Assembly: GCF_036346105.1 (NCBI RefSeq)
Contig: NZ_CP107811.1
Coordinates: 1,054,001-1,118,000 of the forward strand
DNA length: 64,000 nucleotides
Direction of reading: 5' to 3'
Origin: Streptomyces sp. NBC_00539
Lineage (GTDB): Bacteria > Actinomycetota > Actinomycetes > Streptomycetales > Streptomycetaceae
Below are positions 34,114 to 59,591 of this stretch, in pieces; within the stretch, counting starts at the first letter, position 1, and each line of letters begins with the position of its first letter. Below the pieces are notes generated by a model. That model saw only the letters and a list, made by a program, of their open reading frames with translations. It did not search any database and had not been told where the DNA came from. A program made the position numbers and the translations under genes.

Positions 34114-34162
34114 CACGGGTGGCTCCTGCATGGGGCGGGGACGGGCAGGCACGTCGGCGGGA

Positions 34163-37100
34163 TCAGCGGGTGGGCGGGGTCTGGCTGGGTGCCTCGTAAC
34201 CGAGGCGGATCAAGGCGCGCCTTGCGAGGTCGGTGATGCCCCGGGCGTTGAGGAACTCCAGCGTCGGCAGTTCGCAGCCCAGTCGACGGCGAGCGGCGAT
34301 GACGGCCTCGACGGCCATGAGGGAGTCCAGCCCGAGTTGGTCCAGACGGCGGTCGCGGTCGAGTCGGGCGGGGTCGGTCTGCAGGATGTCGGCGAGGACC
34401 TGGGTGATGGCGTCGGCCGCCAGGGTGACGGCCTCGTCGGTGGTGGCGGTGGCGAGACGGTGGCGCAGGTGGTCGGGGCCGTCGTCCTGGGGAGTGTGGG
34501 CGGGGATGAGACCGGCCAGCCGGGGGGTCTGCACGGCCGGCATCATGCTGCGGATGCGGGCCCAGTCGATCCTGGCGGCGGCGCTGACGTCGGTGTCCCG
34601 GGCGATGGCGTCTTCGAGGGCGGTGCAGGCTTCGGCGGGTGTGAGGTTGTCCAGGCCGAGGCGGGCGAGCATGTCGGTGATGCCGTGGCGGGCTGCGTAG
34701 CCGGTGTCGCCGATGGCGCCCCAGGCCACGGTCGTACCGGGCAGCCCGGTGCCGCGCCGGTTGCGGCTGAGCGCTTCGAGGTAGCCGTTGGCGGCGGTGT
34801 AATTGGCCTGGTAGGCGTTGCCGAACCAGGTGGTGACCGAGGAGCAGGCAGCGAAGAAGTCGAGGTCGCGGCCGCGTGTGAGGGAGTCCAGGTGTGCCGC
34901 GCCGAGCATCTTGGGCTCCAGGGCGGTGCGGATGCGCTCGTCGGTGAGTTCGGCGAGCGCTGCGTCGTCCAGGGCCATCGCGGCGTGGATCACTCCGCGC
35001 AACGGGTGGGGTCCGGCGTCGACGGCGTCCAGCACCCGGCGTAGGTCGGCTTCCCGTGTGACGTCGGCCGTGTGGGCGGTTGCTTGGGCGCCGCGGTCGG
35101 CCAAGGCCTGGATGAGGTCGGCGGCGCCGGGGGTGTCGGCGCCCCTGCGGCCCAGGAGGGCGAGGTGGCGGGCACCGTGGTCGACGAGGCGGTGTGCGAG
35201 AGCGGCTCCGAGGCCGCTGAGTCCGCCGGTGATCAGGTAGGTGGCGTCCGGGGACAGCCGCAGGGGCGGGTGGGTCCTGTCGAGGGGCGGCGGCTCCTCG
35301 AAGGTGATGACGACCTTGCCGAGGTGGCGGGAGCGTTGCAGGGCTCGCAGGGCCTCGCCGATCCGGGCGGCGGGGTAGGCCAGGTGCAGCAGTGGTCCGT
35401 AGGTGCCGTCAGTGATCCGTTGTGCCATCTCATCGAAACAGGTGCCGGCCTGGGGCAGGCGGCTGGAGATGAGCTGGTGCGCATCGACACCGAAGAAGGC
35501 GATGTTGTTGCCGAAGGGCCGGAGGGCCAGGGGGGTGGACGCGTAGATGTCGCGCTTTCCGAGCTCCACGAAGCGCCCGCCGGGCCGCAGCAGTTCCAGA
35601 CTGCGGCCGATGGCCTCGCCCGCGAGGGAGTTGAGGACGACGTCGACGCCCTGCCCTCCGGTGAGGTCACGGACCTGTTCGGCGAAGGCCAGGGTGCGTG
35701 AATCGAGGACGTGGGGGACGCCGAGCATGCGCAGCAGGTCGCGCTTGGCGGGGGTGCCGGCGGTGGCGATGACGGTGGCACCTCGTGCCTGGGCGAATTG
35801 GAGGGCGGCCAGCCCGATGCCGCCGGCGGCGCCGTGAATGAGGACGGTCTCGCCTGCCTGGAGGTGGGCGAGGCGTTCGAGAGCGTGGTGGACGGTGAAG
35901 TAGACCACGGGCAGGGTGGCGGCTTCGGCGAACGTCATGCCGGTGGGGATGGGGCCGACGAGGCGGGCGTTGACGGTCACCTGGGAACTGAGGCTGCGGG
36001 GTGCGAGGGCGTAGACGCGGTCGCCCGGTGCGAGGTGGGTGACGGTACGACCGGCGGAGATGACCGTGCCGGCGCATTCGAGGCCCAGGGCAGGGCCGTC
36101 CGGCAGCGGTGTCTCCGCTCCCGGCGGCAGGAGACCGACGGCGAGCATGACGTCGCGGTAGTTGAGCGCGGCCGCTTCGACGGCGATGGTGACCTCGTCG
36201 TCGGCGGGCCGCTGCGGGTGGTCGGGTGCCCAGGTGAGCCGGGGGTGCAGGCCTGCGTCGTGCAGGCGCAGGGTGAAGGGCACCGGGGCGGGGGCGTCGT
36301 GGGTGTCGGTGGCCGTGCGTAGGGCGACGGTGCGGGGGACGAAGCGTCCGCCGCGGGTGAGGACGACCTCGTCCTCGTCGGTGGGGTGGAGCAGTTCGGC
36401 AGCCAGGCGCCGGGCGTCGTCCGTGGGGCGGGGTCCGGCGTCCAGGGAGATGCGCCGGATGGTGAGGTGGGGGATCTCGTTGGCGAGGGAGCGGGTGGCG
36501 CCCCACAGCACTGCGTCCTGGGGAACCTGGGGCTGTTCGGGAGCGGAGTGGATGCCGCTGGGGCGCGTGATGATCCACAGGTTGGTGATGGATCCAGCCG
36601 GCAGGTGCGAGGCGGGACCGGCTAGGGCCCGTAGCGCGCCCAGACGGGTGACGGCCTGCTCGGATGCCTGGGAGGGGCCGGCGCCGGACTGCGCGGCGTC
36701 GAAGAGCAGAACGGTGTTCGGCGGTTGTTGATCGACCGCGAGCCGGTCCCAGTGCTGGGGGGCGTCGTCCAGCCCGGCGAGGTGGACGTCGGCGCCCGTG
36801 CCGGTGAGGGCGTCGGCGAGGGTGCGCATCAAGTCGCTGTCCGGGCTCTCGCCGGCGAGCAGCCAACGGGTGTCCTGGACGGCCGGCGGCAACACGGGGG
36901 CGGGGCCGGCGGCGGCCCGTTCGGTGCGGCGGGCGCAGAGGACGGAGTACTCGAGATCGGGCAGGGGCTCGTCGTGTCCGAGCTGGGCGACCTCGTCGAA
37001 ACCGCAGTCGCGCAGCAGCGGTTGCCAGGCGTCTGCGGGCAGCAGCGGGGAGTCCTGCCGGAGTGCGGTGTCGGTGAAGTCCCAGAAGCCGTCGAGGGTT

Positions 37101-41638: not shown

Positions 41639-42155
41639 AGAGTTCTCCCAGTGCACAAGAGGGGGCAGCGTCGGCGCTAGAGGTGATGGCGGTCCGGCGG
41701 TGTGTTTCCGTCGCCGAAGCATCCGCGATCTTACGGAGCGGTGGCACGGCCCTTTCACGCGTTGCTCCGTTCAGGGGAACGCGAGGGGTGATCTCAGCGC
41801 GCATCGAGGGGTACTTCAGCCAGCCAGCGCCCGTGCCTGCCCTGGCGTATTCACCACTGCGGGTGAACCTGCGTAGCGCCTCCACCGGTATCCACCTGCG
41901 GACATGCCGAATCGGGAGGTGGAAAGGCGTCAACCTGCCGCGCGTCGGCCCCCGGAAGGGAAGCGGCAAGCCACCGGTCCAGCGGCCGCCGGTAGGGTCG
42001 CCGTCGTCCCGATACCCGCCCCCAGGGCCCGCCACCTTCGCATCCGCAGGCAGGCGGATCCGTGTCGCCGTCGCGACTCCCGCGCGGCCGGGCGCAACCG
42101 TGCCGACGAAGGCCCACCCCAACGCGGCCACGACGACTTTTCCGGAAGGTAGGCC
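41639..42155. promoter_or_regulatory. 517-base divergent promoter region
   Basis: This spacer separates PKS1 from the rightward gene set and should hold both promoters. I see no gene in it and could not place -10/-35 boxes or operators with confidence. The only conserved element is CTGGGAGAAC directly before the PKS1 start, which also occurs before an alternative start of PKS2. Confidence 0.45.
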
Positions 42156-43556
42156 ATGAGCAGTTCACAGGTTGCCGCACCCACCGTCCGCACCGACCTG
42201 ACAGCATGCGACTGGTGGCGTCCGTGCACCGTGCAGGTGATCGGGGAAGTGCCGGCCGGGCAGCCGGCGCTGCGGGCGTTCCTGGACCGTCTGCTCGCCT
42301 CGTTCGAGGTGCAGGGCCACACAGTCTTCGACCGCTCCCATGGCGATGTCGACCTGGTGCTCATGTGCGGGGAGGTCCCGGACGGGCCCGAGCCTCTGCG
42401 GGAGCGGATCCCCGAGGGGTACCCGCCGCTGAGCGCGATGCTGCGCCAGCGCCACGGGCTTCGCCGCAACCCGCGCCACGTCGTCGCCGTGGTCGAAGTG
42501 CCGGAACTGCTCAGTGCGCTGCCCCATGCCGAGGTCGTCGCCACCGCACGCACGGCCATGGGCCGGCTGGGCGCGGCCAAGGTCCTGTTCGTGTCGCGAG
42601 GTGAGACTTCCGGCCAGGTCCGGGAGGTTACCTTCTGCAACATGGAGGGCGGCCACCCCACCGAGGTGGACGACATCGCCGACCGCATGCGCGATCGGCT
42701 GGTCACCGCGGCGTGCGCCCAGCAGGTCGCCGAGGACTACGACACCGTCCGCGACGCCATCACCACCGAGGCGTGGCAGGCCAGCACCACACCCGAGCAG
42801 CTGGCTATCGCGGGCCGCAGGATGGGCGAGCTGGGCCTGCTGTCCCCGCCGTTGAAGGTGTCCGACTTCGTCTCGGAGCAGCTGGCCGACATGTACGAGA
42901 TCTATATGGGGGTGCGGGGCTTCAGCGAGGGCATGCTGTTCGCCTTCGACCCAGACCTCGACTGCCTGGTGGTCAGCGCTTCCGGCTCCTGGGACGTCGA
43001 CAAGCGGTCCCTGACGCGCGACCAGGTCGTCGCCGTCGAACCGCGCCTGGCCGGCGGTCGACGCCTGCGCGTCTTGGCGCCGAGCGGCGTGCTGCCGATG
43101 CAGCCCTCGGTCGAGACGTGGGAGATCTGCGCCCTGATGGAGGCCTGCCCGACCGTCCGCGTCACCAAGGACGCGGACGGCGTGTGGGTGCCGGACCCGC
43201 ACGGGGAACGCGAGGTTCCCCTCATCAGGGCCGGCATCCACGCCCACGTCGGCGTGACCTCCAGCGACGACGCGGTGATCGAGACCGTGGAAGCGGACCG
43301 CGAGCAGTTCCCCTACGGATTCGGCTGCGGCACGGACCTGACCGTCGAGATCGCCCGCAACACCGTCCGCCGCTCCCACGCGGTCAACGACCCGGACGAT
43401 TCGCGCACCTACGTCCGCTGGCCCCTGCTGTACCACGGCGAGATGGCCGTCGAACTGTGGAAGCCCGGCCTGCACTCCCAGCCCTTCCAGGGCCTGCTCG
43501 ACCTGTACGGCACAACGGTGCGGTTCACGCCCGACGACGTCCCCCAGCCGGTATGA
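42156..43556 (+). CDS. Unidentified 466-aa protein of the PKS island
   Basis: I recognise no family. The protein has no signal peptide and no membrane segments, is acidic, and seems to have two parts. Residues 1-180 form an alpha/beta region (VVAVVEVPELLSALPHAEVVATARTAMGRLGAAKVLFV). Residues 200-466 are a second region with FAFDPDLDCLVVSASGSWDVD, EVPLIRAGIHAHVGV and a C-terminal stretch FGCGTDLTVEIARNTVRRSH. The last part is rich in Asp/His/Cys and could bind a metal or cofactor. The ATG at 42156 follows GGAAGG. It is the first gene of a tight rightward set with an SDR and an ABC exporter, 37 bases before the SDR, which suggests a tailoring or release role in the PKS pathway. Confidence 0.75.
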   Translation: MSSSQVAAPTVRTDLTACDWWRPCTVQVIGEVPAGQPALRAFLDRLLASFEVQGHTVFDRSHGDVDLVLMCGEVPDGPEPLRERIPEGYPPLSAMLRQRHGLRRNPRHVVAVVEVPELLSALPHAEVVATARTAMGRLGAAKVLFVSRGETSGQVREVTFCNMEGGHPTEVDDIADRMRDRLVTAACAQQVAEDYDTVRDAITTEAWQASTTPEQLAIAGRRMGELGLLSPPLKVSDFVSEQLADMYEIYMGVRGFSEGMLFAFDPDLDCLVVSASGSWDVDKRSLTRDQVVAVEPRLAGGRRLRVLAPSGVLPMQPSVETWEICALMEACPTVRVTKDADGVWVPDPHGEREVPLIRAGIHAHVGVTSSDDAVIETVEADREQFPYGFGCGTDLTVEIARNTVRRSHAVNDPDDSRTYVRWPLLYHGEMAVELWKPGLHSQPFQGLLDLYGTTVRFTPDDVPQPV

Positions 43557-43593
43557 GCCGAAGCTCACCCTCCCTCCGAAGAGAAGAAGCGTC

Positions 43594-44409
43594 ATGCCCA
43601 CAGCGGTGATCACCGGTGCCACTTCGGGCCTCGGACTGGCCTTCGCCGCACACCTGGCCCGGGACGGTTACGACCTGACCCTGGTCGCCCGCATTGAGCG
43701 CGACCTGGAGAGCACCGCTGACCGGTTGCGACACTCCGGCCACCGGATCACCACCATGGCCGCCGACCTGGCCACCTCACCCGGCAGCCGCCGCCTCACC
43801 GGCCGTCCGGCCCGGAGCGTCCCGGACCTGCTGGTCGACAACGCCGGCATCGCCCTCGCCGCGCCCTCCACCGGCGACCCCGGCGCGGAAGACGGTCGCC
43901 TGCAGCTGAACATCGGTTGTGTGCTGCGCACGACCCAGACCGTCCTGCCCGCCATGATGCGCCGCGGCTCGGGTACCGTGATCAACGTCGCGTCCGTCGC
44001 CGCACACGGACCGACCTGGCTGGCCGGCACCTACCCCGCCGGCAAGTCCCGGGTGCTCGCCTTCACCGAGTCCATCGCCCGCTCCGCGCCGGTCAGAAGC
44101 AGCGGCGTCCGCGTCGTGGCTCTGCTGTCCGGCTACATGCGCACGGCATTCCACGGGCGGGCGGGGCTGGAGGTCGGCCACCTGCCTTCGTGGATGTGGC
44201 TGAACAGCGAGCAGGTGGTCACCGCCACCATGCGCGACCTCGCCACAGGGCGCCCGGTCAGCCCCCCCGGCCGCCGCTACAGGGCCTGCGCCTGGGGCTT
44301 GCGTCACCTGCCCCGGACCCTGACCGCCGCATTCAGCCGGGACCTCGGCCGCAGCCAGCCAATCCTCCCCCAGGCCGGTGTCCCCCACCGTGCGGACACC
44401 GGGACATGA
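43594..44409 (+). CDS. Short-chain dehydrogenase/reductase
   Basis: This 271-residue classical SDR has the cofactor motif TGATSGLG at residues 8-15, LLVDNAGIA (NNAG variant), the Ser in INVASVAAHG and the catalytic YPAGK (Tyr-x-x-x-Lys). An NADP preference is suggested by the Arg after the second strand (LVARIERD). It may reduce a keto group or aldehyde on the polyketide. Its stop overlaps the ATG of the ABC exporter (ATGA), so the two are translationally coupled. Confidence 0.9.
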   Translation: MPTAVITGATSGLGLAFAAHLARDGYDLTLVARIERDLESTADRLRHSGHRITTMAADLATSPGSRRLTGRPARSVPDLLVDNAGIALAAPSTGDPGAEDGRLQLNIGCVLRTTQTVLPAMMRRGSGTVINVASVAAHGPTWLAGTYPAGKSRVLAFTESIARSAPVRSSGVRVVALLSGYMRTAFHGRAGLEVGHLPSWMWLNSEQVVTATMRDLATGRPVSPPGRRYRACAWGLRHLPRTLTAAFSRDLGRSQPILPQAGVPHRADTGT

Positions 44410-46208: not shown

Positions 46209-46244
46209 CCGCTACCGGTCGCTTCAACTATGAGGACACGGTCC

Positions 46245-47213: not shown

Positions 47214-47329
47214 TGCGGCCCACGGCCGCCTGGGACACGCCGAGCACTCCGGCGATCACTCGAAGCATTCAAGGAATCACTGTACGTTTGGTCACTCCGA
47301 AAACGGGTGCATGCCGCTGGCTTGGCCGA

Positions 47330-48060: not shown

Positions 48061-48456
48061 GCCGGGGGGAGTCCAACGGTGTAGCGCTGGCACCGAAGTT
48101 TTTCCTCAGCTGCTCTGGGATGGCGTAGTACATGACGCGTCCGCGGGTGAGGGAGGCGACCGCCGTATACGGGCCTTCACCGACCCGAGCCACCTCATGC
48201 GCCGACTCCGATACGGCCTCCGCCAGGTCCAATGCCGCAGCAACATCATCGTCGGATGCCTCACCGGAACAGGACTCAGACCGACGACACCACGACTACA
48301 AACTCAGCTACGCAACGTGACCCACTGACGGAACCACCGATCGATGCACCCGGGTGACCGATGGACTCAGAGATCGTTAGCGGACCGGAGGTGTGCCCGC
48401 GTCACTTCACCGGGCAGGGCGTCCGCACCCCCGTGTCCAGCTTGAAGGTATTCGAT

Positions 48457-49587
48457 ATGTTGACGGCATTGACCGGAGCAACCGGTTTCCTGGGCTCCTA
48501 TCTTCTGCGTGAACTCTTGGCCACCGGAGGCGAGGTGGTGGCCTTGGTCCGTGGCTCCCTGGCAACCGCCGCGAGGCGAGTCCGTCACGCGGTCGAAGCC
48601 ACCGGGTCGCCCCTGCCCGAGGACTTCGATCAGCGGGTCCACTTGCTGCGGTACGACCTGCACGACCACGCACTCGGCTTGGACCGCGCCGCCTACACCG
48701 CTCTGGCCGAGTCAATCGACGCGGTCTGGCACTGCGCCGGTTCCATCGCTCTGACCGGACCGTGGGACCAGCTGTACCGCACGAACGTGGACGGCACGAG
48801 GCACGTGCTGGAACTGGCCAGAGCCGCCGGCCCCACAACCAGGGTGATGCACACCAGCACCGCCTACGTCGCCGGCGCCCGACTGCACGGTCTGGTCCGA
48901 GAAGACGAACTCGATGACACGGCAGGGTTTCAGACGCCCTATGAGAAGTCGAAGTTCCTGGCCGAACAGGTGGTACACGACTGGGCTCGAAGGCATCAGC
49001 ACCCTGTCACCATTCTCCGCCCCAGCGTGCTGGTCACCGACCGTCCCGTGCCTCCTGGTGCCCCACGGCACCCGCTGGCGGAGATCGCGGCGAAGATGTC
49101 CCTGCTCCACCAGGAAGAGAACATCCGCGCCTTGATCGAACTGACCGGCCGCGACACTCTCCACCTGAGAATCCAAGGGGACCCCGAGGCGCTGCACAAT
49201 GTCGTCCAGGTCGAGCACGCGGCCGCGGCCATGGTGCGGATCAGCGGCCGAGCACCTGATCGTCTGGTGAACACCTGCCACATCGTGCACCCGCGCAACA
49301 CCCCTGTACGGATGATCACGGACGCCATGCATGTCTGCTGTTCCCGGCTGAAGGTCGACATCGTGCGGGAGGCTGTGACGGAAGGGGAGGCCGAACGGGC
49401 CGCCATCGATGTGGGTGCCGGCATCAGTTCGTACGCGACCTTGCGCCGTGAGTACGACCGCACTCAGTACCTCGCTGCGGTCGGTCGGCTCCCCGATCCT
49501 CCCCCTGTCGACGAGGACTACTTGCTGTCGGCTCTCGCTATCCCCGCCTCAGTCGACGTCGCTGCCGATCGGATGCGAAGCCTGTGA
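48457..49587 (+). CDS. NAD-binding-4 (thioester/fatty acyl reductase) enzyme
   Basis: The 376-residue protein opens with LTGATGFLGSYLLRELLATG, the NADPH-binding motif of the extended SDRs that include the reductase domains of carboxylic acid reductases, NRPS terminal reductases and fatty acyl reductases. It has YRTNVDGTRHVLELA, the catalytic Tyr-Lys in YEKSKFLAEQ and ILRPSVLV. Such enzymes release thioester-bound acyl chains as aldehydes or alcohols. As neither PKS in the island ends in a thioesterase, this is the best candidate for chain release; that is inference. I use the ATG at 48457, with GAAGG eight bases upstream; the frame is open further upstream. Its 3' end overlaps the decayed ABC gene on the other strand. 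Confidence 0.88.
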   Translation: MLTALTGATGFLGSYLLRELLATGGEVVALVRGSLATAARRVRHAVEATGSPLPEDFDQRVHLLRYDLHDHALGLDRAAYTALAESIDAVWHCAGSIALTGPWDQLYRTNVDGTRHVLELARAAGPTTRVMHTSTAYVAGARLHGLVREDELDDTAGFQTPYEKSKFLAEQVVHDWARRHQHPVTILRPSVLVTDRPVPPGAPRHPLAEIAAKMSLLHQEENIRALIELTGRDTLHLRIQGDPEALHNVVQVEHAAAAMVRISGRAPDRLVNTCHIVHPRNTPVRMITDAMHVCCSRLKVDIVREAVTEGEAERAAIDVGAGISSYATLRREYDRTQYLAAVGRLPDPPPVDEDYLLSALAIPASVDVAADRMRSL

Positions 49588-50724
49588 GTCCGCATCGTCC
49601 GGGACGGGAGCCGTGATGACAACGGAATTCTGAGCGTGGCGGAGTGTCGAGAGGCGGTGGGTGGCCACGACCACCACCCGCGTCGCAGCGAGACGCTGGA
49701 GGGCACACATCACGCGCTGCTCTCCGGCATCGTCCAGCTGGGACGTCGGTTCGTCCAGACGTCCTGTCCCAGAATCCGGACGTGTCCGTGATCGGCCTGC
49801 ACAAACCGCGGAGGTGCCCGATCCCCAACACGACAACAGTGACCGGTGAAGTGAGGTACAGCAGAAGAAGGAAGAACGCGTTGGAGGCGGCCGACGACAG
49901 GTCACCGGCGATGACTCCCTGGGTCGCGACCACGGCGACGGCCATCACGGCCACTTGCTGTCCCAGCCCCACCAAAGGCCCCATCAGTGACCGAAGGTGG
50001 GCCGCGGTGACCGACACGGCGCCCAGGTGGCCCGCGGTCCGTCCGAGTCGTGCGGCCGCCATGGCCTCGTGTCGGTGAGCCTTGACCCGCGTAAGCGCGG
50101 TCATGTATCCGAACGATTGCTGCCCGAAGTCCGCGAGTGCGGCCTGCCGGGCGTCGGCCGCACGCCTGGTTCGCGCGATCACGCTGATCAGGGGACTCCG
50201 ACGACGCCGAAGGAGCCCACGGTGAGCAAGGTCAGGGCAGGATTCAGGCAGCCCGTTGCCGTGAGGGTGGCGACCGTCCCGAGCGCAGCCACCTGGATGT
50301 GGACCAACGCGGCCTCGGCTCATGCGTGCACGCGCGCGGCGCCGGACGTCACTCGGGTGGTGAGGTCACCGGCTCCCTGTGCCTGCGCGGCAGAGAGCTG
50401 CAGACGCAGTACATGGTCGATGACGCGACGTCGTAACCGGAGCAGCAGGGCCTCGCCGGCCCGGGCGAGCAGCCACCCGCTTCCCGCCTGGGTACCCGCC
50501 GCGCCCAGGGCCAAGGAGCTGAGCCGCATCACTGGGCCTGCGATCGGCTCTCTGCGGGCGAGGGCGATAGTCACGTCCCACACCGCCCACGGCAGGGCCA
50601 GTGCCGATCCTGTCGAGCACACGGCCAAGAGGGCGGCGATCACCAGCAAGGCACGGCTTCCGCGCGACAGGCAGGACAGGCGCAGATGTACCCGTGCCGC
50701 GGGTGCGGCACCGAGCCGAGGCAC
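49549..50724 (-). pseudogene. ABC exporter, frameshifted with internal ATPase deletion
   Basis: The N-terminal membrane part (50724-50320, LLVIAALLAVCSTGSALALP) is followed, after a frame change, by ALTRVKAHRHEAMAAARLGR and LLLLYLTSPVTVVVLGIGHL. Both match the intact exporter at 44406-46208 (LLALAAVLSLAS, ALITVKACRYEAVASRKLGH, LYLLHLTSPIAVTAIGIGHL). The sequence then jumps, after about 30 codons, to LDEPTSQLDDAGEQRVMCAL and VVVATHRLSTLRHA. Walker A, the signature motif and about 250 residues are therefore deleted. It is non-functional. It lies in the leftward block behind PKS2 and the diiron gene, so each PKS once had its own ABC exporter. Confidence 0.85.
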
Positions 50725-50872
50725 CGGGGCGCCGGTTGCCGTCGGGGCCCCCGTGAGACGTGCGGCGGCTCAGGTCGGGAGCGTTCCGAGCCCGCCGCCC
50801 TGCGCGGTCGCCGACTCGGTCGAGTGCGCGATACCCCTGCTCACCCGGTGGGCGTCGGCGCGTCTCGGGGCA

Positions 50873-51976
50873 TTACGGTTCCCGCCCAAGGGTCATCATC
50901 TCTGTGACCTCCTGAGCGCGGGCCTGTTCCTCGGCGGCGAACCGCTCGGCGTCCAGCCGCTCGGCAACCTCCTCGTCCTGCCTCATCAGCCGGTCGAGGA
51001 CGGCGTTCTGAGGGTCCCCGTCGCACAGGTCGGTGAAGGTGTCCTGAACCTCGGGGCTCCACAGGCCGATGTCCTTGACGCACGGCATGATGCGGGAGAA
51101 CAGCGTGCGTCGGAACAGTCTCAGGTAACTGCTCTCCTCGATAATTCTGGCGGCTTTCGCAGCAGGAACACCGAAGTTCTCCAGCACCTCAGTACCGCGT
51201 AGTCGGTCGTGCATCAAGTGGCACCCCTCGATGACGAACTCCTCCCGGTCGGCCAGTTCACTCGCACTCAACTGCCGGTAGTGGTCACGCAGTGCCATCC
51301 TGCCGAAGGCCACGTGACGAGCCTCGTCCTGCATGACATACGCCAGCAGCTGACGCGGCAGGGGCTTGTTGGTGGTGTCCCGCAGCAACCCGAAGGCGGC
51401 CAGGGCCAGTCCCTCGATCAGCACCTGCATGCCGAGGTACGGCATGTCCCAGCGGGAGTCCGTGAGGGTGTTGTTCAGCAGGACGCGCAAACTGTCGTTG
51501 ATCGGGTAGTGCATGGCGAGCTTCTCGGACAAGAAGCGGGAGAAGATCTCCACGTGTCGGGCCTCGTCCATGGTCTGCGTCGCGGCGTAGAACTTCGCGT
51601 CCAAGTCAGGGGCGCTCTGCACGATGCGGGACGAGCAGATCATGGCGCCCTGTTCCCCGTGCAGGAACTGGCTGAACTGCCATGCGGCGTAGTGCATCCG
51701 CAGTTCGCTGCGATCAGCCGTACTGAGCCGGTCCCAGTAGGAGGTGCCATGCAGTGGCAGCACCTCGTCCGGTGTCCCCAGCGGGTCGGCGGGGTCTACT
51801 GCGTGGTCCCAGTCGATCCGGCGCATGGCGTCCCACTGCCGGTCCTTGCCGCGCTGGTACAGCGCAAGCATCTGCTCACGGCCGCCGCCGTACTCCCACG
51901 TGAAGCTGGCGGCTCCACCGGCGGGCACGGCCCACCGGCCGGCCTCTGCTCCTGACCGGGGCGGTGGTGCCGACAT
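50873..51976 (-). CDS. Ferritin-like diiron oxygenase/desaturase
   Basis: The 367-residue protein has the carboxylate-bridged diiron pattern: FLHGEQGAM (first Glu helix), ATQTMDEARHVEIFSRFLSE (E/D-E-x-x-H, about residue 137), LIEGLALAAFG (third helix Glu) and VMQDEARHVAFGRMAL (second D-E-x-x-H, about residue 213). The fold includes acyl-ACP desaturases, N-oxygenases and R2-like oxidases. In a reduced-polyketide locus, hydroxylation or desaturation of the chain is a fair guess. The ATG at 51976 follows AGGAGGA. It lies 187 bases after the PKS2 stop on the same strand. Catalytic type and substrate are not decided by sequence alone. Confidence 0.87.
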   Translation of the reverse strand: MSAPPPRSGAEAGRWAVPAGGAASFTWEYGGGREQMLALYQRGKDRQWDAMRRIDWDHAVDPADPLGTPDEVLPLHGTSYWDRLSTADRSELRMHYAAWQFSQFLHGEQGAMICSSRIVQSAPDLDAKFYAATQTMDEARHVEIFSRFLSEKLAMHYPINDSLRVLLNNTLTDSRWDMPYLGMQVLIEGLALAAFGLLRDTTNKPLPRQLLAYVMQDEARHVAFGRMALRDHYRQLSASELADREEFVIEGCHLMHDRLRGTEVLENFGVPAAKAARIIEESSYLRLFRRTLFSRIMPCVKDIGLWSPEVQDTFTDLCDGDPQNAVLDRLMRQDEEVAERLDAERFAAEEQARAQEVTEMMTLGREP

Positions 51977-52163
51977 GATCGTCCTCCTGGTGTTGGTGTG
52001 AGCGGCTGGTCCCGGTTTCCGGTGGTGTGGGACGTCACCGAAGTGCCCTCTGCCGGCTGTGGGCCGTCCGGGGGGTAGTGGCCACGACGCTGATTCCCGC
52101 ACCGGGAGCGAGTGCCGTCAGGCAACCGCTCCCCGTGTCCGTCCGGCGTACGGCGCCCGCTGG

Positions 52164-55100
52164 TCATCCGCAACGGCCGACGACGAGCAGGCGGATGCGG
52201 CGCGCCAGGTCCTCCAGACTGCTCGCCGCGAGGAACTCGAGGGCCGGCACCTCACATCCGATGCTCCGGTTGACCTTCACGGAAAGCTCAACAACCATCA
52301 GTGAGTCGAGCCCGAGTTGGTCGAGTGCGCAGGCTCGGTCGATACGTTCGGGATCGGTCTGCACCACCTCGGCGACAAGTCCGGCCAGTTCGTCGCAGAT
52401 CACGGACGTCGCGGCTTCCTCCGGCAGACCGGCGAGACGGGAGCGCAGCTCTTCCGACCGGCTGGTGCCCTTGTGACCACCGTGCTCCCGCCAGGTCGAG
52501 AACAGGGGTCGGTTCAGTCCGGGAAGAAGCTGTGCCACCCTTCCCCAGTCCACCCGGCCGAACACACCGACCTCACGTCCGCCGGCCAGTGCGCTCTCGA
52601 CCGCCCGCCAGATCTCGTGTGGCGTCACTGAGCCGAGGCCCATCTGGTGCAGGGTCTGCTCGATGCCGGTGCGCACGACGAATCCGGTTTCGCCGACGCC
52701 GCCCAGTGCCATCGCAGTGCCGGGCCTCCCGTGGCTTCGGCGGCGCCGGACCAATGCCTCCAGGTACATGTTGGCGGCCACGTACGAGCTCTGCCGGAGA
52801 TTGCCTGCGAGAGCGGTCAGCGATGAGCAGACCAGGAAGAAGTCCAGTTCCCGGTCCCAGGTGAGCTCGGACAGTACGGCGGCACCGCGCACCTTGGGGT
52901 GCAGCACTGTCTCGATGCGGTCGGCCGTCAGCTCTGCCAGGGGGGCGTCGTCCAGCACCATGGCTGCGTGCAGGACGCCACGCACCGGATGTCCGGCTGC
53001 GTCGGCGTCGGCCAAGACCCTACGCATGGCCAGGCGGTCCCCGGCATCGGCGGCGACGACGGTGACCTGCACCCCCATGTCGGCCAGCCGCGCCAGCAGC
53101 GCCGGTGCCTCGGGCGAGGCGGACCCTCGACGACCGACGAGGACCAGGTGACGCGCGCCGTGCTGCGCCATCAGCTCCGCCAGGGCCGCTCCCAGTCCGC
53201 CGAGCCCGCCAGTGATCAGATAGCTGCCTGTCGGCGCCAGAGCCACCGGCGCAACGGGCTGCTCGACCGGCACCGGATCGCCCAGCTCGACGACGACCTT
53301 GCCCATGTGCTTGGAGTGGCGCAGGGAACGGAAAGCGTCGGTGATCCTGCCCGCCGAGTACACCTGGTGTGGAAGGGGCCGGTAGCGGCCGTCGGTGACA
53401 CGGCGGCAGAGTTGGGCGAACTCCTCGGCCGCGACGTCGGGCATGTGCACTGGCAGGGTCGCCACGTCAACACCGAAGTAGGCGATGTTCCGCCGGAACG
53501 GGCCGAGAAGCAGCGGCGTGTTGGCGTAGAAGTCCCTCTTGCCCAGTTCCACGAAGCGTCCGCCGGGCCGCAGGCACTCCAGCCCACGGGAGATGGCTTC
53601 GCCGCTCAGGGAGTTCAGCACCACATCGACGCCCTGGCCGCCGGTCAGCTCCTTGACATCCTCGGCGAACCGCAGGTCACGGGAGTTGAGTACGTGCTTC
53701 ACCCCGAGCATGTGCAGCAGGGCACGTTTGGCCGGTGTGCCCACGGTGGCCACGACAGCGGCACCCGCCAGCCGTGCGTACTGCAGGGCCGCCAGGCCGA
53801 CGCCGCCCGCCGCCCCGTGGATCAGCACCCGCTCTCCGGAACGGAGCCTGGCCTGCCGTCCCAGGCTGTACTGGGCGGTGAGGAAGACTGCGGGCAAGGT
53901 GGCGGCTTCGGCGAAGGTCATCCCAGCGGGTACGTGCCCGAGTTGCTCGGCTCGGACAGTTGCGTGCGAAGAGAACCAGCCGATTCCTGAGCCGAAGACC
54001 CGGTCGCCCGGCTGGAATCCGCTGACGCCTGCTCCGACCGCCACCACCTCGCCCGCGCCTTCCAGCCCGAGAGCGGGGCCTGCGCTGTTCGCCACCGGCT
54101 GGTCGTCCGGGATCAGGCCGGTGGCCAGCATGACGTCCCGGTAGTTGAGGGCGGCGGCACGCACCGAGACCAGGACCTCCCCCGCCGCTGGCGCGCTGGC
54201 CTCCTGCGGCTCCCACACCAGCTGGTACGACATGCCGGGGTCGCGCAGGCTGAGCCGGTACCCCTCGGACTGACGACGCGACGGCGGTGCGGCCGCAGTC
54301 AGCCGGGGGACGAAGCGCCCTCCCTCGGTGAGCACGATCTCCCGTTCATCGCCGGGCTGCCGGAGCTCCTCGATCAGCCGGTCGACATCCCGCCCGGCCG
54401 CGGGCGATCCTTCCAGGGAAATGAGGCGGACCTCGATGTGCGGGTGTTCACTGGCGATCGTCCGGCCGAGCGCCCAGATGGCCGCCGCCTCGGGCGACTG
54501 GGGTCGCTCGGGCGCCGGGAAGACCCCGGTCGGCGGCAGGACGAGCCACAGGGCGACATGACGGCCGTCGAACCGACCGACCAGGTCACGCATGCGCTCG
54601 ACGGTGTGGGTGATGGAGGTGACCGGATCAGCATGCGCAGCGGGTGAGCCGATCAGTGCCACGATTCCCACCTCGGTACCGGGTTCGGGGGGCAGCACGT
54701 CCTCCAGGCCCCGTCCGTCGAGCGGGAGCAGCGGCGCGACGAGCGTCCCGGCCAGCGATGCGGCCAGCCCGCCCGTCACGTCGGCGGCCACCATCCAGGT
54801 TCCGGTCGGAGCGGGCCGGTCAGCGGGCCGTCCCACCGTGGCCGCCGGAGCGCGCCGGGCGAGGATCACCGAGTCACTCGGGCGTTCCGGGTCCGGCGCT
54901 TCACCAGTGCATGCCACGGCGTCGAATCCGTTCGCCGTGAGCAGCGTCTTCCACTGTGCCCGGGGCAGCAGTGGTGATTGCGGCCGCAGATCGGTGTCCG
55001 TGTGGTTCCCGTAGCCGTCCAGCATGCCGAAGAAGCTGGAGACCCACAGGTGGTGGTCGTGGCTTTCCAGAGCCAGCAGCATGCCTCCGTCCGCCAGGAG

Positions 55101-58100
55101 TTCCGACAGCCGTGCGACAGAGGTGGTCAGGTCTTTCGCTGTGTGCAGCGCGTTTCCGGCGACCACCACGTCGTAGTGGCCGGGGTGGTAGCCCTGCTCT
55201 GTCAGGTCTTGGTCCAGGTCGAGGGTCCGGTACTCGATGAAGTCATATCCCGCGAACCGCTGCTTGGCCCCGGCCAGGAACGCGGCGGATCGGTCGGTGA
55301 ACGTGTACCGAGTGCGTTCGGGAGGCAGTACGGGCAGCAGCGCCCCGGTCAGGCCACCGGTCCCCGCCCCCACTTCCACGATCCGCAACGGCCGGTCGTT
55401 GGCCCAGTGCCTGGTGGTCGCCGCCAGCAGTTCCGCCGCGTAATCGTTCTGTAGCCGCAGGTGAGCGGCGTTGCTGTGGAGCTGTGGGATCAGGTGCTGG
55501 TCGGCCTCACCGAAGAGAAGCTCTCGGGGGTCGGCCTCGCCGCTCAGGAGCTCGGGCAGTTGCATGCCGCAGCGCAGTCCGGGGAGTGTCAGGGTCAGGG
55601 CCTCGGGCCGATCGGCGATCAGCGCGCGGACCTGCTCCAGTGGGTCCGGGGCGGCGGCCGGGTCCGTCAGCCGCAACCGGCCAGTACCGGGGAGTGCCTC
55701 GGCCAGCCCTGTGTCGCACATCAATGCGGCAAGGTGCCGCAGATGGGCACCGTGCTTGGGCCGCTGGGCAGCCGCGCACAGCTCGTCGATGTCGAATTCG
55801 GTTTGCCCCGGCATCAAGGCTTCGACGGCCCGCCTGGCGAATCCGGCCACGATGGCCACGGTACGGGCGGACACCTCGTCGTAGTGATCAACGCTCCGGC
55901 TGCGCAACCGGTCACGGGCCGGCCCGGTCTCGGCCATCAGGTCGGCAGGAGCGGGCAGCCGGACGGGAGCCGCCGCACCGCACGGAGCTGCCCGCAGGAC
56001 CAGTTCCTGGAGTGTCGCGGGTTCGGCCGCCTGGTGATCGAACCGTCGCAGTCGGCAGCCGTCCAGCTCCACGGTGACCCGGCCGTCCAGGTCCGTCACC
56101 CGCACGTCCCAGATCGCTTCCCGGGAGTTGGCCCGGACCAGCCGCACGTGCAGGTATCCCTCGGCAGCCGGAGCGTGCCATCGCCGCACCGCCGCCAGCT
56201 GGACGGGCAGGAAGAGCCCGTCACCGGCCACCTCGGCCAGCAGCGGGGCGCCTGCCTGCAGTGCTCCGTCCGTGACCACGGGATGGGCGAGATAGCCGTT
56301 CAAGGGTTGTTCGGTACGGTAGGAGGCCAGCAACTCGGCCTCTCCCAGCCGGAACTCGGTGAGCACTTGGAAGGCCGGACCGTGCGTGATGCCGTTGTCG
56401 GCCAGCGCCTTGTAGTGCATGTCGGCGGGCCAGGGAGCCGCTTGGAGGCGGTTCCGTAGCTCGTCCAGGTCCGTTGCCGGGGGCGCGGGACGCATCAGTC
56501 GCCGGACCCTGCCCTGTGCGTGGGGCTGCCAAGGGGAGTCGTCCGCCCGACGGCTGGCGATGCTCACCGTTCCGGTCTGCGGATCGACACCGGTCTGCAG
56601 CATCAGGTCGTCCGTACTGTCGTCACCGGGGAGGACACAGGCGCTGGTGACGGACAGCTCGGTGACTTCCAGGGTGGATGTGTCGAGGAAGTGCTGACCG
56701 GCCGCGAGGGCGGCTTCCAGGAACGCGGTCGCGGGCAGCACGGTGGTCCGTCCCACACGGTGTTCGGGTAGCCACGGGACGCGCACGCTGCTCAGCACAC
56801 CATGCCAGGCGGGTTGGGCGGTGAGTGCCCGCTGTCCGAGGAGCGGATGGACCGTCACACCGTCACTGCTCAAGCGGGACCAGCAGCTAGGGTCGGCTCC
56901 CCACAGCCGTTCCCGCTGCCAGGGGTAGCTGGGCAGGTCGACCGGTGGGGTGGGGTGAGGGAAGTGCCTCTGACCGTCGGTGGCCGCCCCGGCGGCCAGC
57001 ACGTGAGCGACCGCGGTGTTCATGGCGGCCGGTCCGTCGGCCTGCCGGGCACCCGTACTGACCACCTCGACCGGCGACCGGTCACCGTGGACCAGACGGC
57101 GCAGGTAGGGACGGAGAACGGAGTGGGGCCCGATCTCGACGAAGACGTCGAGCTCTTCCGCTGTCAGGGCTTCGACGGCCGAGGCGAACTGCACGGGCTC
57201 GCGAACGTTGCGCCACCAGTAGTCGGCGTCCAAGGGCCTGTCGTCCAACACGCCACCGGTCACCGTGGAGGCGAACGTGAGCTGCGGCCGGCTCGGTTCC
57301 AGACCCTGCAGCCCATGCAGCAGGACGTCCTTGACAGGGTCCATGGCCCTGCTGTGGAAGGCGTAATCGAGGTCGAGTTCACGCGCGAAGATGCCCCGCT
57401 CCCCCAGCACGTCACAAAGCTTGGCCACGTCCTCGGCCGGTCCGGCGACCGTGGTGTCGGTGCGACTGTTGACTCCCGCTAGTTCCAGACGGTGCCCGAG
57501 AGCGGCGATCTCGGCGGTCAGCTCCTCCTCGGACAGCCCTACGGCAGCCATCCGGCCGGTGCCGACCGCCACTTCCTGCGCCAGGCTGCGTGCGGCCACC
57601 ACCCGGGCAGCGGTCCTCAGATCGAGCGCTCCCGCCGTGTAGGCCGCAGCGATCTCCCCGACGCTGTGCCCGACCACTGCTTCCGGGCGTACTCCGTGGG
57701 AGCGGAGCAGTTCCACGACGGCGAGTTGGTAGGCGAACAGCAGCGGCTGCGCCACTGCGGTGGACTTGAGCCGCTCCGGGTCACCCGCGTTCATCGCCTC
57801 TTCGACGGACCAGCCGATCAGCGGCTCCAGGACCCGGTCCACGGACTCGACCGTCCGGCGGAAGACAGGCTCGGTGCGCAGCAGTTCGGCCCCCATGCCG
57901 GACCACTGAGATCCGTTGCCGGAGAAGACGAACGCCACTCGGCCCTGGGTGACCTTCCGGGCGGTCGCCGAGCCTGGCACGGAACGATCCCCACGCGCTG
58001 CCGCGAGCAGAGCCCTCGCCGCTTCCTGCGCGGTTGCGGCCATCACCACGGTGCGGTGGTCGTGCCGTGCGCGGCGGCGTGACGTGGTGTGCGCGATGCC

Positions 58101-59591
58101 GTAGAAGGTGCTCGCATCGGCGTCCTCCAGCCTCTCGGCGAGCCGTTCGCATGCCTCGGCGAGCGCGGCGGAGCCACGGGCGGAGACCGTGACGGGCACG
58201 GGACCCGCCGGCGGCGGCGGCTTGTGGCTCTCCGGGGCGCGTCCCAGCAGGACGTGGGCGTTGGCGCCGCCGAAACCGAACGAGTTCACTCCGACCACCG
58301 CGTCAGCGGTCACCTCGACGGTCTGCGACCGGACGGTGGGACTGAGGTTCAGTTGCCGAAAGTCGATGCGGGGATTCAGGGGTTCGGCGTGGAGGCTGGG
58401 TGGCACCGCACGGTGCCGCAGGACCAGGATGGCCTTGAGGAGGCCGGGAAGGCCGGACGCCGCTTCCATGTGCCCCAGGTTGGTTTTCACCGAACCCAAC
58501 GGCAGCGGACCGACCGTACGCCGGACGGCAAGCGCCCGGCCGATGGCATCGCACTCGATCGGATCACCGATGGGCGTTCCCGTTCCGTGGGCCTCCAGGT
58601 AGACCAGACGGTCCGGATGCACCGACGCGGCGTCGTAGGCCCGGCGCAGCAGTGATTCCTGAGCTCGTGCGCTGGGCAAGGCGAGACCCTGGGTATGGCC
58701 GTCGTTGTTGGCCCCGCTACCCAGGATCACGGCATGGACCCGGTCACCGTCTGCCAGCGCGTCCTCAAGTCGCTTCAGCAGCAGCAGGCCACCACCCTCA
58801 GCTCGGACATAGCCGTCGGCGTCTGCCGAGAAGGCCCGGCAGCGGCCGGTGGGTGACAGCATGGAGGCGTTGGAGAACCCGGCGAACACCCCCGGGTCCA
58901 GCAGCACGTTGACCCCGCCGGCCAGGGCCAGCGCTGCCCGGCCGGCACACAGATGCTCGTAGGCGCGGTGCACGGCGGTCAGAGCGGAGGAGCAGGCGGT
59001 ATCGAGGGCGAAACTCTCACCGTGCCAGTCCAGCAGGTGGGAGATGCGATTGGCGGTGTTGGCGAGCGCGGTCCCGGTCATCGAGTAGACGTCGCCCGCC
59101 GACGCTTTGGCCTTGGCCAACCGTCCGAAGTCGTGGCTGGAACAACCTACGAAGACAGCGCCGTCCGCCCCGGCGTAGTGTTCGGGATCGACGCCCGCAT
59201 CGTCGAGTGCCTCGACCGCTAGCTCCAGCAGCATGCGCTGCTGCGGATCCATGGTGAGGACCTCACGGCGCGAGATGCCGCGGAAGAACTCGCAATCGAA
59301 GCCATGGATGTCCGGAAGGAAGCCGCCCGCGAACGTGTAGCTCCGCCCAGGACGGCGTCGTCCGCCGTCCAGGAAGTCCGCCGTGTCGAAGCGCTGCGCC
59401 GGTGCTTCGCTGACCAGGTCCTCGCTCTTCGTCAGTGCCGTCCACAAAGCGTCCAGATCGCTGATCCCGCCCGGCAGTCGACACGATGTGCCGATTACGG
59501 CGACGGATTGAGACGTTGGCAAGATGTTCTCCCAGGTCACTCCAAGGCAGTCCGCGACAGTCTCCAGTCCCGCGCCGGACCGCTCTGACAC
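52164..59591 (-). CDS. Highly reducing type I PKS: KS-AT-DH-cMT-ER-KR-ACP (PKS2)
   Basis: This 2475-residue paralogue of PKS1 has the same order: KS with LDTACSSAL (about residue 195), EAHGTGT and TNLGHMEAA; AT with FSGNGSQWSGMG, GHSVGE and YAFHS; DH with HRVGRTTVLP (about 945) and DGALQ; C-methyltransferase with IVEVGAGTGG (about 1405); ER with LIHGAAGGVG (about 1924); KR with TGGLGGLG and Tyr-Asn in SYVAAN; ACP with GLDSL (about 2427). The DH motif HxxxGxxxxP has Arg where Gly is normal, so dehydration may be weaker or altered. There is no thioesterase. The GTG at 59591 is kept, but a TTG at 59522 behind TGGGAGAAC, the same leader as PKS1, is an equally good start. It probably works with PKS1 in making two chains or one chain in two stages. 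Confidence 0.93.
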   Translation of the reverse strand: MSERSGAGLETVADCLGVTWENILPTSQSVAVIGTSCRLPGGISDLDALWTALTKSEDLVSEAPAQRFDTADFLDGGRRRPGRSYTFAGGFLPDIHGFDCEFFRGISRREVLTMDPQQRMLLELAVEALDDAGVDPEHYAGADGAVFVGCSSHDFGRLAKAKASAGDVYSMTGTALANTANRISHLLDWHGESFALDTACSSALTAVHRAYEHLCAGRAALALAGGVNVLLDPGVFAGFSNASMLSPTGRCRAFSADADGYVRAEGGGLLLLKRLEDALADGDRVHAVILGSGANNDGHTQGLALPSARAQESLLRRAYDAASVHPDRLVYLEAHGTGTPIGDPIECDAIGRALAVRRTVGPLPLGSVKTNLGHMEAASGLPGLLKAILVLRHRAVPPSLHAEPLNPRIDFRQLNLSPTVRSQTVEVTADAVVGVNSFGFGGANAHVLLGRAPESHKPPPPAGPVPVTVSARGSAALAEACERLAERLEDADASTFYGIAHTTSRRRARHDHRTVVMAATAQEAARALLAAARGDRSVPGSATARKVTQGRVAFVFSGNGSQWSGMGAELLRTEPVFRRTVESVDRVLEPLIGWSVEEAMNAGDPERLKSTAVAQPLLFAYQLAVVELLRSHGVRPEAVVGHSVGEIAAAYTAGALDLRTAARVVAARSLAQEVAVGTGRMAAVGLSEEELTAEIAALGHRLELAGVNSRTDTTVAGPAEDVAKLCDVLGERGIFARELDLDYAFHSRAMDPVKDVLLHGLQGLEPSRPQLTFASTVTGGVLDDRPLDADYWWRNVREPVQFASAVEALTAEELDVFVEIGPHSVLRPYLRRLVHGDRSPVEVVSTGARQADGPAAMNTAVAHVLAAGAATDGQRHFPHPTPPVDLPSYPWQRERLWGADPSCWSRLSSDGVTVHPLLGQRALTAQPAWHGVLSSVRVPWLPEHRVGRTTVLPATAFLEAALAAGQHFLDTSTLEVTELSVTSACVLPGDDSTDDLMLQTGVDPQTGTVSIASRRADDSPWQPHAQGRVRRLMRPAPPATDLDELRNRLQAAPWPADMHYKALADNGITHGPAFQVLTEFRLGEAELLASYRTEQPLNGYLAHPVVTDGALQAGAPLLAEVAGDGLFLPVQLAAVRRWHAPAAEGYLHVRLVRANSREAIWDVRVTDLDGRVTVELDGCRLRRFDHQAAEPATLQELVLRAAPCGAAAPVRLPAPADLMAETGPARDRLRSRSVDHYDEVSARTVAIVAGFARRAVEALMPGQTEFDIDELCAAAQRPKHGAHLRHLAALMCDTGLAEALPGTGRLRLTDPAAAPDPLEQVRALIADRPEALTLTLPGLRCGMQLPELLSGEADPRELLFGEADQHLIPQLHSNAAHLRLQNDYAAELLAATTRHWANDRPLRIVEVGAGTGGLTGALLPVLPPERTRYTFTDRSAAFLAGAKQRFAGYDFIEYRTLDLDQDLTEQGYHPGHYDVVVAGNALHTAKDLTTSVARLSELLADGGMLLALESHDHHLWVSSFFGMLDGYGNHTDTDLRPQSPLLPRAQWKTLLTANGFDAVACTGEAPDPERPSDSVILARRAPAATVGRPADRPAPTGTWMVAADVTGGLAASLAGTLVAPLLPLDGRGLEDVLPPEPGTEVGIVALIGSPAAHADPVTSITHTVERMRDLVGRFDGRHVALWLVLPPTGVFPAPERPQSPEAAAIWALGRTIASEHPHIEVRLISLEGSPAAGRDVDRLIEELRQPGDEREIVLTEGGRFVPRLTAAAPPSRRQSEGYRLSLRDPGMSYQLVWEPQEASAPAAGEVLVSVRAAALNYRDVMLATGLIPDDQPVANSAGPALGLEGAGEVVAVGAGVSGFQPGDRVFGSGIGWFSSHATVRAEQLGHVPAGMTFAEAATLPAVFLTAQYSLGRQARLRSGERVLIHGAAGGVGLAALQYARLAGAAVVATVGTPAKRALLHMLGVKHVLNSRDLRFAEDVKELTGGQGVDVVLNSLSGEAISRGLECLRPGGRFVELGKRDFYANTPLLLGPFRRNIAYFGVDVATLPVHMPDVAAEEFAQLCRRVTDGRYRPLPHQVYSAGRITDAFRSLRHSKHMGKVVVELGDPVPVEQPVAPVALAPTGSYLITGGLGGLGAALAELMAQHGARHLVLVGRRGSASPEAPALLARLADMGVQVTVVAADAGDRLAMRRVLADADAAGHPVRGVLHAAMVLDDAPLAELTADRIETVLHPKVRGAAVLSELTWDRELDFFLVCSSLTALAGNLRQSSYVAANMYLEALVRRRRSHGRPGTAMALGGVGETGFVVRTGIEQTLHQMGLGSVTPHEIWRAVESALAGGREVGVFGRVDWGRVAQLLPGLNRPLFSTWREHGGHKGTSRSEELRSRLAGLPEEAATSVICDELAGLVAEVVQTDPERIDRACALDQLGLDSLMVVELSVKVNRSIGCEVPALEFLAASSLEDLARRIRLLVVGRCG

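Follow-up and report, generated by a model that had tools for sequence, protein, structure and literature searches.

Here we describe a polyketide island of Streptomyces sp. NBC_00539 that lies in a 64,000-nucleotide window (the whole stretch of DNA that was analysed), corresponding to positions 1054001–1118000 of the 7.07 Mb contig NZ_CP107811.1 in a genome of 7.5 Mb. The island encodes two large polyketide synthases (PKSs), P0001 and P0002, each of which carries ketosynthase (KS), acyltransferase (AT), dehydratase (DH), C-methyltransferase (cMT), enoylreductase (ER), ketoreductase (KR), and acyl carrier protein (ACP) domains on a single chain. With a probability of about 0.65, we read the island as two separately inherited lipid or polyketide cassettes lying side by side, each with an iterative single-module reducing PKS that would make methyl-branched chains, to be separately released and exported. 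By sequence, the PKSs belong to a known kind, namely a widespread bacterial family with a stand-alone clade in the Actinobacteria; what is new here is the anatomy of two cassettes that meet, with the second copies of an MMPL-family exporter, an ABC (ATP-binding cassette) transporter, and a reductase broken.

Architecture of the two synthases

The two genes are given below by their coordinates in the window (G and L numbers, here and later, are our own labels for genomes and loci).

34163..41758, minus strand: P0001, single-module PKS with the order KS-AT-DH-cMT-ER-KR-ACP, 2531 amino acids (aa); from Pfam and motifs
52164..59591, minus strand: P0002, single-module PKS with the order KS-AT-DH-cMT-ER-KR-ACP, 2475 aa; from Pfam and motifs, with a 73% identical relative in G113

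Pfam lists the same succession of domains in each protein (KS, AT, DH by two models, S-adenosylmethionine (SAM) methyltransferase, ER, KR, and ACP), and it lists no thioesterase in either. A motif check found the KS motifs DTACSS, EAHGTGT, and GH[LM]EAA in both chains, together with GHSVG in the AT, EVGAGTG in the cMT, LGLDSL in the ACP, the His and Asp of the DH, the nucleotide sites of the ER and KR, and the Ser, Tyr, and Asn of the KR. The seven-domain order and the main motifs reported in the preliminary description of this DNA are thus borne out, with one deviation: the DH motif of P0002 reads HRVGRTTVLP, in which the glycine of HxxxGxxxxP is displaced. The likely start of P0001 is near 41638, where the annotated start of its ortholog on a plasmid of Streptomyces sp. 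NBC_01334 aligns.

P0001 and P0002 are only 51% identical over their length (KS 64%, AT 56%, DH 47%, cMT core 51%, ER 58%) and are therefore old relatives rather than fresh duplicates; a recent tandem duplication was considered and rejected on this identity and because the nearest relatives of the two PKSs differ. The third-position GC is 0.89 in P0001 and 0.82 in P0002.

The GHSVG motif of the AT would, by the usual rules, be read as malonyl-type, in which case the methyl branches would derive from SAM. It recurs in 39 of the 40 frames of the PKS family; the one frame without it is truncated where the retrieved sequence ends. The second AT motif of the window PKSs is YAFH; these counts come from simple patterns, and 7 of the 40 family frames give no match to this second motif. 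At this position, HAFH is the classic malonyl type and YASH the methylmalonyl type.

Both proteins are stand-alone and, as judged from their sequences, probably iterative synthases. A search of the host genome with P0001 returned many modular PKSs, and within the window only the places of P0001 and P0002 matched, so that no other KS lies there. The earlier view that the two do not sit in a larger modular line therefore held, on this count and in the KS phylogeny given below.

The host genome also holds a third, broken member of the PKS family, on contig 1 at 7045997–7051604 (L003, L094), close to the contig end. Its KS lies in one frame and its AT-DH-cMT-ACP part in another, with the frame change between KS and AT, and the ER and KR are missing. 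A DDE transposase gene is nearby, and the closest PKSs to this copy are those of G386 and G128.

A widespread bacterial family

The prevalence of the family was assessed with the cMT region of P0001 as the query, in the family of the host (taken as Streptomycetaceae) and in an even sample of its phylum. Matches at E<=1e-60 were obtained in 44 of 395 family genomes, mostly on single-module frames, and matches at E<=1e-50 in 3 of the 396 genomes of the phylum sample (host counted both times); the latter count implies an uneven spread, with the PKS family clustering in particular groups. Named relatives were collected by a pattern scan with P0002 of a collection that, by its own description, represents 84,980 species by a single genome each. 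The scan gave 140 confirmed relatives, the best 80 of which form the named set, and their domain order was scored with hidden Markov models built from the Streptomycetaceae family.

The full seven-domain order was found on one frame in 62 of these 80 bacterial relatives, while the remaining 18 are without at least one domain on the frame, some of them being cut by the record end; single-module frames measure about 2.4–2.7 kaa in most relatives. Stand-alone reducing PKSs that embed a cMT are therefore no rarity among bacteria. The preliminary description had called this build typical of fungi and had held that bacterial single-module relatives lack the cMT. Neither statement survives, since the cMT region is present in the 62 relatives with full order (36 of them with the SAM motif) and since, according to PMC6662830, iterative PKSs of Streptomyces with a C-MT domain are already in print. 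Of the 26 papers that contain one of the hyphenated domain strings, 25 titles were listed, and 23 of these name a fungus, yeast, or lichen, which explains how the fungal impression arose.

Among the 32 loci of the actinobacterial KS clade, 29 have the full order and 28 of these 29 the SAM-binding motif; the other 48 named loci include 33 with full order, and only 8 with the motif. Some single-module PKSs of Proteobacteria, Chloroflexota, and planctomycetes (L112, L115, L123, L126, L129, and others), equal in length to the family members, keep the cMT region and lack the SAM motif. In most proteobacterial relatives this region scores weakly and is perhaps a dead embedded methyltransferase. Such a dead embedded methyltransferase occurs in animal fatty acid synthase.

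Phylogeny of the ketosynthase and methyltransferase domains

The KS tree was built by a quick search with SH-aLRT (Shimodaira–Hasegawa-like approximate likelihood ratio test) support and comprised 107 rows: 16 of the 37 family KSs (14 random ones plus the two of the window), all 80 KSs of the named loci, five modular KSs of the host genome, and six PDB references; the fungal rows are two, LovB and PsoA. Both window KSs fall inside a 48-row clade in which every row is actinobacterial (SH-aLRT 100), and the pair of LovB and PsoA (100) lies outside it. A separate group of 9 (support 95) unites the five modular KSs of the host with PikA, CurL, MAS, and G369_32225, the KS of MAS pairing with the last (support 96). 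In approximately unbiased (AU) tests, the union of the actinobacterial clade with four of the host's own modular KSs (the long-branched fifth being left out) was rejected (p=0.004). The KS phylogeny that had been proposed as a check thus does not place the window KSs inside ordinary modular PKSs, the outcome named beforehand as a refutation, but the label of a fungal type is not earned either.

Scores against reference structures were obtained with a query that had the window KS at its head and the LovB cMT segment behind, the LovB and MAS bits being those of the KS stretch. The KS scored 370 bits to CurL, 367 to PikA, 361 to MAS, 354 to Pks13, 348 to PsoA, up to 344 to DEBS, and 335 to LovB; by these values it is about equidistant from all references and not nearer LovB than CurL, PikA, or MAS. 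The cMT scored 198 bits to the cyanobacterial CurJ, 125 to AprA, 122 to DisA, 113 to 7dmb, and 107 to LovB.

G369 32225 (minus strand; L075/L076) is a 2220-aa PKS without the cMT motif that lies near a family member, with VASHS or another outlier as its AT motif. It may, from its sequence, be a MAS-like synthase in Streptomyces.

Two cassettes with different relatives

Around and between the two PKSs lie the following accessory genes, intact or broken.

32447..34113, minus strand: broken MMPL gene adjoining P0001 (downstream), in several frames, C-terminal part missing
42156..43556, plus strand: P0003, conserved protein without a family, 466 aa, divergent from P0001; homologs in NBC_01334 and G113
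43594..44409, plus strand: short-chain dehydrogenase (SDR); best NCBIfam model mycolate reductase, 125 bits against a cut-off of 380
44420..46208, plus strand: intact ABC transporter (Pfam); open reading frame (ORF) listed from 43917, homology beginning at 44331–44442; 73% identical in NBC_01334
46230..47213, plus strand: SDR of the P0001 cassette (Pfam); 77% identical in NBC_01334
47321..48032, plus strand: broken second thioester reductase, from tblastn with the reductases of G274, G176, and G052
48361..49587, plus strand: P0004, intact stand-alone thioester-reductase-like protein (PF07993), homology from 48439–48469
49555..50751, minus strand: broken second ABC transporter in three pieces, 61–65% identical to the ABC gene of G052, residues 393–589 missing
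50873..52102, minus strand: P0005, AurF-like diiron protein (PF11583) directly downstream of P0002
59651..61951, minus strand: P0006, intact MMPL-family exporter (PF03176), 59 bp upstream of P0002

Searching plasmids with the P0001 cMT as the query brought up the P0001 cassette on a linear plasmid of Streptomyces sp. NBC_01334. One side of this cassette holds an SDR (77%), an ABC transporter (73%), and P0003 (86% identical); the other side holds the PKS (82–87% identical), an MMPL of 787 aa that is intact, and a further SDR. Window positions 32469–43557 are colinear with this plasmid DNA at 82% identity, and the colinearity ends inside the MMPL gene. On the plasmid, the homologs of P0003 and of the ABC gene follow each other with no gene between them, at the place where the window has the SDR at 43594–44409. 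The plasmid PKS (L182 16375–23924) is annotated as two overlapping coding sequences and for that reason may be frame-shifted in the record. The relative of P0002 in G113 (73% identical) is followed by a P0003 relative (55%) and, as the second gene after the PKS, by an AurF-like protein 83% identical to P0005; a 52% homolog of the SDR at 43594–44409 lies near the same PKS, on the side opposite the P0003 relative. The nearest relatives of the two cassettes thus differ, in NBC_01334 for one and in G113 for the other, and the cassettes meet in this window. The G+C content is 0.70–0.74 left of 44 kb and 0.67–0.70 right of it, and this drop, together with the drop in third-position GC from P0001 to P0002, fits two origins without proving them.

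The suggestion that each PKS once had its own MMPL exporter has to be revised, as only the gene upstream of P0002 (59651–61951) is intact and the one adjoining P0001 is broken. With the intact plasmid MMPL as the tblastn query, residues 1–195 were found in frame -2 and 193–554 in frame -3, with a weak match of 501–558 in frame -1; homology stops at residue 554–558 of the 787 in the intact relative, and nothing further follows. The broken reductase is spread over pieces in two or three frames (29–61% identity), its N- and C-terminal parts are missing, and one piece found with the G052 query begins at 47116. One intact copy each of the MMPL, the ABC transporter, and the reductase is therefore left for both PKSs. 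A single family PKS occurs in G052, where reductase, PKS, MMPL, and ABC genes form one run on one strand, and the MMPL adjoining that PKS is 80% identical to P0006. The best NCBIfam model for P0006 is MmpL3 (279 bits, below the cut-off of 1400), and the best PDB match of P0004 is MxaA, which we take to be a PKS/NRPS (nonribosomal peptide synthetase) reductase domain. P0005 was considered as a cluster-specific enzyme and rejected, since it is a protein common in the host family (homologs in 115 of 200 host-family genomes, this genome counted) and has a second copy in the host genome.

Neighbouring genes were counted in 37 regions, namely 35 chosen from 54 matches outside the host, the region of the third copy, and the window itself; the regions span 20–40 kb each (the window 64 kb), and the gene calls are our own and GC-based. 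The reductase family was present in 8 of the 37 regions, always close to the PKS (a P0004 homolog adjoins the PKS in 7 of the 36 other regions), the MMPL in 7 (window counted in both cases), and the thioesterase and KS III families in 5 each. In the fetched flanks of the named loci of the actinobacterial clade, an MMPL was found in 6 of 32 and a reductase in 4 of 32. Since the reductase, thioesterase, and KS III families each occur in only some regions, the PKS family seems, on this evidence of gene neighbourhood, to use different off-loaders in different cassettes.

Twin PKSs were observed in two other places. In G224 (L071/L072), they lie about 20 kb apart at most, with a gene between them from a family that includes fatty-acid desaturase; in L135 of Streptomyces aureocirculatus, they lie within about 20 kb, with an MMPL between and a reductase beside them, the second PKS being cut by the locus end. 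A further subgroup (L091, L093, L096, L097, and L098, in G142, G292, G265, G209, and G229) has a KS III-like protein near the PKS, and several of its members also have an alpha/beta hydrolase, an AMP-ligase, or a 3beta-hydroxysteroid-dehydrogenase-like protein (Pfam on the G209 copies). By analogy, this set recalls OleABCD and suggests a possible pathway to a methyl-branched beta-lactone or olefin.

P0003

P0003 gave nothing above the cut-off in Pfam, NCBIfam, or PDB, and it is rare, with 6 of 298 family genomes and 2 of 296 genomes of the phylum sample (host counted in both). It adjoins a PKS of this family in the window, in NBC_01334, and in G113. Homologs in four genomes of one other genus (G004, G020, G031, and G038) have SDRs near. 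The G038 homolog, which adjoins a 63% homolog of the SDR at 46230–47213, also has a discrete KS and an AurF-like protein close by; near the G004 homolog are an ACP, carboxylase genes, a thioesterase, an MMPL, and a reductase, near the G020 homolog a thioesterase, an MMPL, and a reductase, and near the G031 homolog only an SDR was found.

We tentatively propose, as an idea that is itself doubtful, that P0003, AurF-like proteins, SDRs, MMPL, and reductase form an undescribed set for lipid finishing and export that is placed on interchangeable chain builders, with P0003 as a new off-loading or chain-modifying enzyme; the cassettes of the window would have fused their accessory genes, each losing parts that the other keeps. 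The chain builders would then be single-module cMT PKSs in the window, NBC_01334, and G113, and discrete enzymes in the second genus (the KS of G038, the ACP and carboxylase genes of G004). A P0003 homolog on a 3.3 kb contig of G590 has a sensor-like frame downstream and no lipid gene in view on that contig, which argues against such a set.

Proposed pathway and alternatives

In the pathway that we favour for the two cassettes, the AT would load malonyl-CoA, the KS would condense repeatedly on the same module, the cMT would methylate some beta-keto intermediates using SAM, and the KR, DH, and ER would reduce the chain to a programmed degree. As the PKSs carry no thioesterase, a separate enzyme would take the methyl-branched chain off the ACP; the likeliest off-loader is the stand-alone thioester reductase P0004, which would yield an aldehyde or alcohol. 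The SDRs and the diiron protein may modify the product further, and it would leave through the single intact MMPL, perhaps with the ABC transporter, an exporter that both PKSs would now share.

Several results weigh against this pathway or the cassette reading behind it. The YAFH motif of the AT is neither HAFH nor YASH, and bears on malonyl use. P0004 scores 140.5 bits with the curated thioester-reductase model TIGR01746, below its cut-off of 213.35. No reductase was found in 29 of the 37 regions and no MMPL in 30, and the 40 kb from G373, whose PKS is the nearest full-length P0001 relative of the set (54.5%), gave no hits with the MMPL, the reductase, or P0003. A thioester reductase is likewise missing from the 41 kb covered of the NBC_01334 plasmid, the closest P0001 cassette, and from the 40 kb around the P0002 relative of G113, so P0004 may not serve P0001 or P0002. 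The AU test did not reject the union of the actinobacterial clade with the whole modular/MAS/CurL group of 9 (p=0.098), nor the union with the two fungal KSs, LovB and PsoA (p=0.404). Finally, with three accessory genes broken, the island may be in decay. That it is no more than a decaying remnant, with at least one of the PKSs not expressed or not active, we consider unlikely: besides these broken neighbours, the third family copy in the genome is broken, the NBC_01334 ortholog is annotated as two coding sequences, and the DH glycine of P0002 is displaced, but each of the two PKS frames runs open for about 2,500 codons and keeps its catalytic motifs, where an unselected gene would be expected to gather stops, and every accessory gene still has one intact copy.

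The presence of two PKSs beside one intact MMPL could also mean, as the preliminary description suggested as its second idea, that they make different chains, which are joined head-to-head or by an ester link into one product and then undergo a mycolate-like reduction and export. The best NCBIfam models of the SDR at 43594–44409 and of P0006 (mycolate reductase and MmpL3, both under the cut-off) point this way, as do the twin PKSs of G224 and S. aureocirculatus and the two such PKSs that lie about 135 kb apart in G113. We give this explanation a low probability, however, given that the window has no further KS, that no joining enzyme was found among the scanned ORFs between the PKSs, that condensation domains occur only in an NRPS 17–32 kb away, and that the P0001 cassette stands alone in the 41 kb covered of the NBC_01334 plasmid. 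The same NRPS and the many modular PKSs of the genome could be taken to indicate that P0001 and P0002 are modules of a larger assembly line, working one round each, and the p=0.098 given above leaves room for it. This is very improbable in view of the lack of any further KS in the window, the single-module state of most relatives, the annotation of the plasmid ortholog (in which the protein starts some ten residues ahead of the KS, with little room for an N-terminal docking part), and the rejected clade with the host's own modular KSs. Least credible is that a highly reducing PKS was recently acquired from a fungus, a reading to which the shared domain order, the titles of papers with hyphenated domain strings (mostly fungus, yeast, or lichen), and the p=0.404 for a KS tie to fungi might lend themselves; neither the KS tree nor the cMT scores support it, as both PKSs sit inside the large actinobacterial clade (support 100), their third-position GC is high, and their cMT is nearer CurJ than LovB.

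Other genes in the window

An NRPS of 5104 aa with a terminal thioesterase lies at 2385–17699 (plus strand), preceded by an O-methyltransferase and followed by an amino-acid-kinase-like protein and a major facilitator superfamily exporter; this group is apparently a cluster separate from the PKS island. A serine hydrolase of the beta-lactamase fold (PF00144 and DUF3471) lies at 23836–25482 (minus strand), about 9 kb from P0001, and no sign of linkage to P0001 was seen. The beta-lactamase fold also includes acyltransferases such as LovD.

Relation to known systems

Fungal highly reducing PKSs share with the window PKSs the domain order with an embedded cMT and the lack of a thioesterase. LovB and PsoA likewise carry reducing domains and a cMT on one chain, as generally understood for the whole proteins, of which the KS and cMT were compared here; in the KS tree the window KSs fall outside this pair, and the cMT scores 107 bits to LovB versus 198 to CurJ. 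Mycocerosic acid synthase (MAS) and the Pks2-like synthases of mycobacteria are single reducing modules like the window PKSs, and MAS gave the top whole-protein PDB score (921 bits, with KS-AT-DH as the best stretch). They are linked to MMPL exporters. The window PKSs differ from MAS in having a cMT with a SAM motif and an AT (GHSVG and YAFH) that, by the usual meaning of these motifs, is not of the methylmalonyl type, and in the KS tree that of MAS falls in the separate group of 9.

Stand-alone iterative type I PKSs of Streptomyces were reportedly described by Wang and coworkers in PNAS in 2020, presumably the source that others cite for allenic polyketides and citreodiols. In Streptomyces, iterative type I PKSs have proved commoner than was initially believed, and they produce allenic polyketides and citreodiols (PMC8622039). 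S. rochei has two iterative type I PKSs that include a C-MT domain, SRO_6380 and SRO_7330; both are candidates for citreodiol formation, and their likeness to the window PKSs lies in this description and in the genus (PMC6662830). Likened by description only, the window differs from such stand-alone iterative PKSs of Streptomyces in having two in one island with an MMPL, a thioester reductase, and P0003. The iterative lagunapyrone PKS of Streptomyces sp. MP131-18 has been compared in print with fungal reducing PKSs; it is described as lacking an ER and a C-MT, unlike the window PKSs, and is thought to act with a type III PKS (PMC5301196). Titles and the opening parts of abstracts contained nothing on these two PKSs or on a Streptomyces cassette that combines a PKS, an MMPL, and a reductase, and we claim no wider absence.

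Beyond this genus, monomodular PKSs have been suggested to be spread over further phyla (PMC10308959). The Swf mono-modular PKS of sponge symbionts consists of SwfA, with the order KS-AT-DH-ER-KR-ACP, followed by SwfB; a single module followed by a thioester-reductase-domain protein recalls the window, whereas SwfA as described there has no cMT and SwfB adds a sulphotransferase domain (PMC3908369). PfSgaA of Pseudomonas is an iterative type I PKS that acts in sphingolipid formation and pairs with a serine palmitoyltransferase; 6,101 putative clusters homologous to its own are described (PMC12134224). Its likeness to the window PKSs is that of a bacterial iterative type I PKS. Single-module proteobacterial PKSs, which may be related to SgaA, appeared in the scan with P0002; most proteobacterial relatives are without the SAM motif in the cMT region, unlike the window PKSs. 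No serine palmitoyltransferase-type pyridoxal-phosphate enzyme was seen among the window ORFs that were scanned, which are not all of its ORFs.

Implications

Fungal origin is not to be read from a single-module reducing PKS that embeds a cMT, since such PKSs are frequent among Streptomyces and also occur in other phyla. The island offers a natural test case for how the sharing of a single set of release and export genes arises between two related synthases, and P0003 represents a family worth solving. Exported methyl-branched lipids are known mainly from mycobacteria. If the proposed mechanism holds, the products of this island would be exported methyl-branched lipids of the Streptomyces cell.

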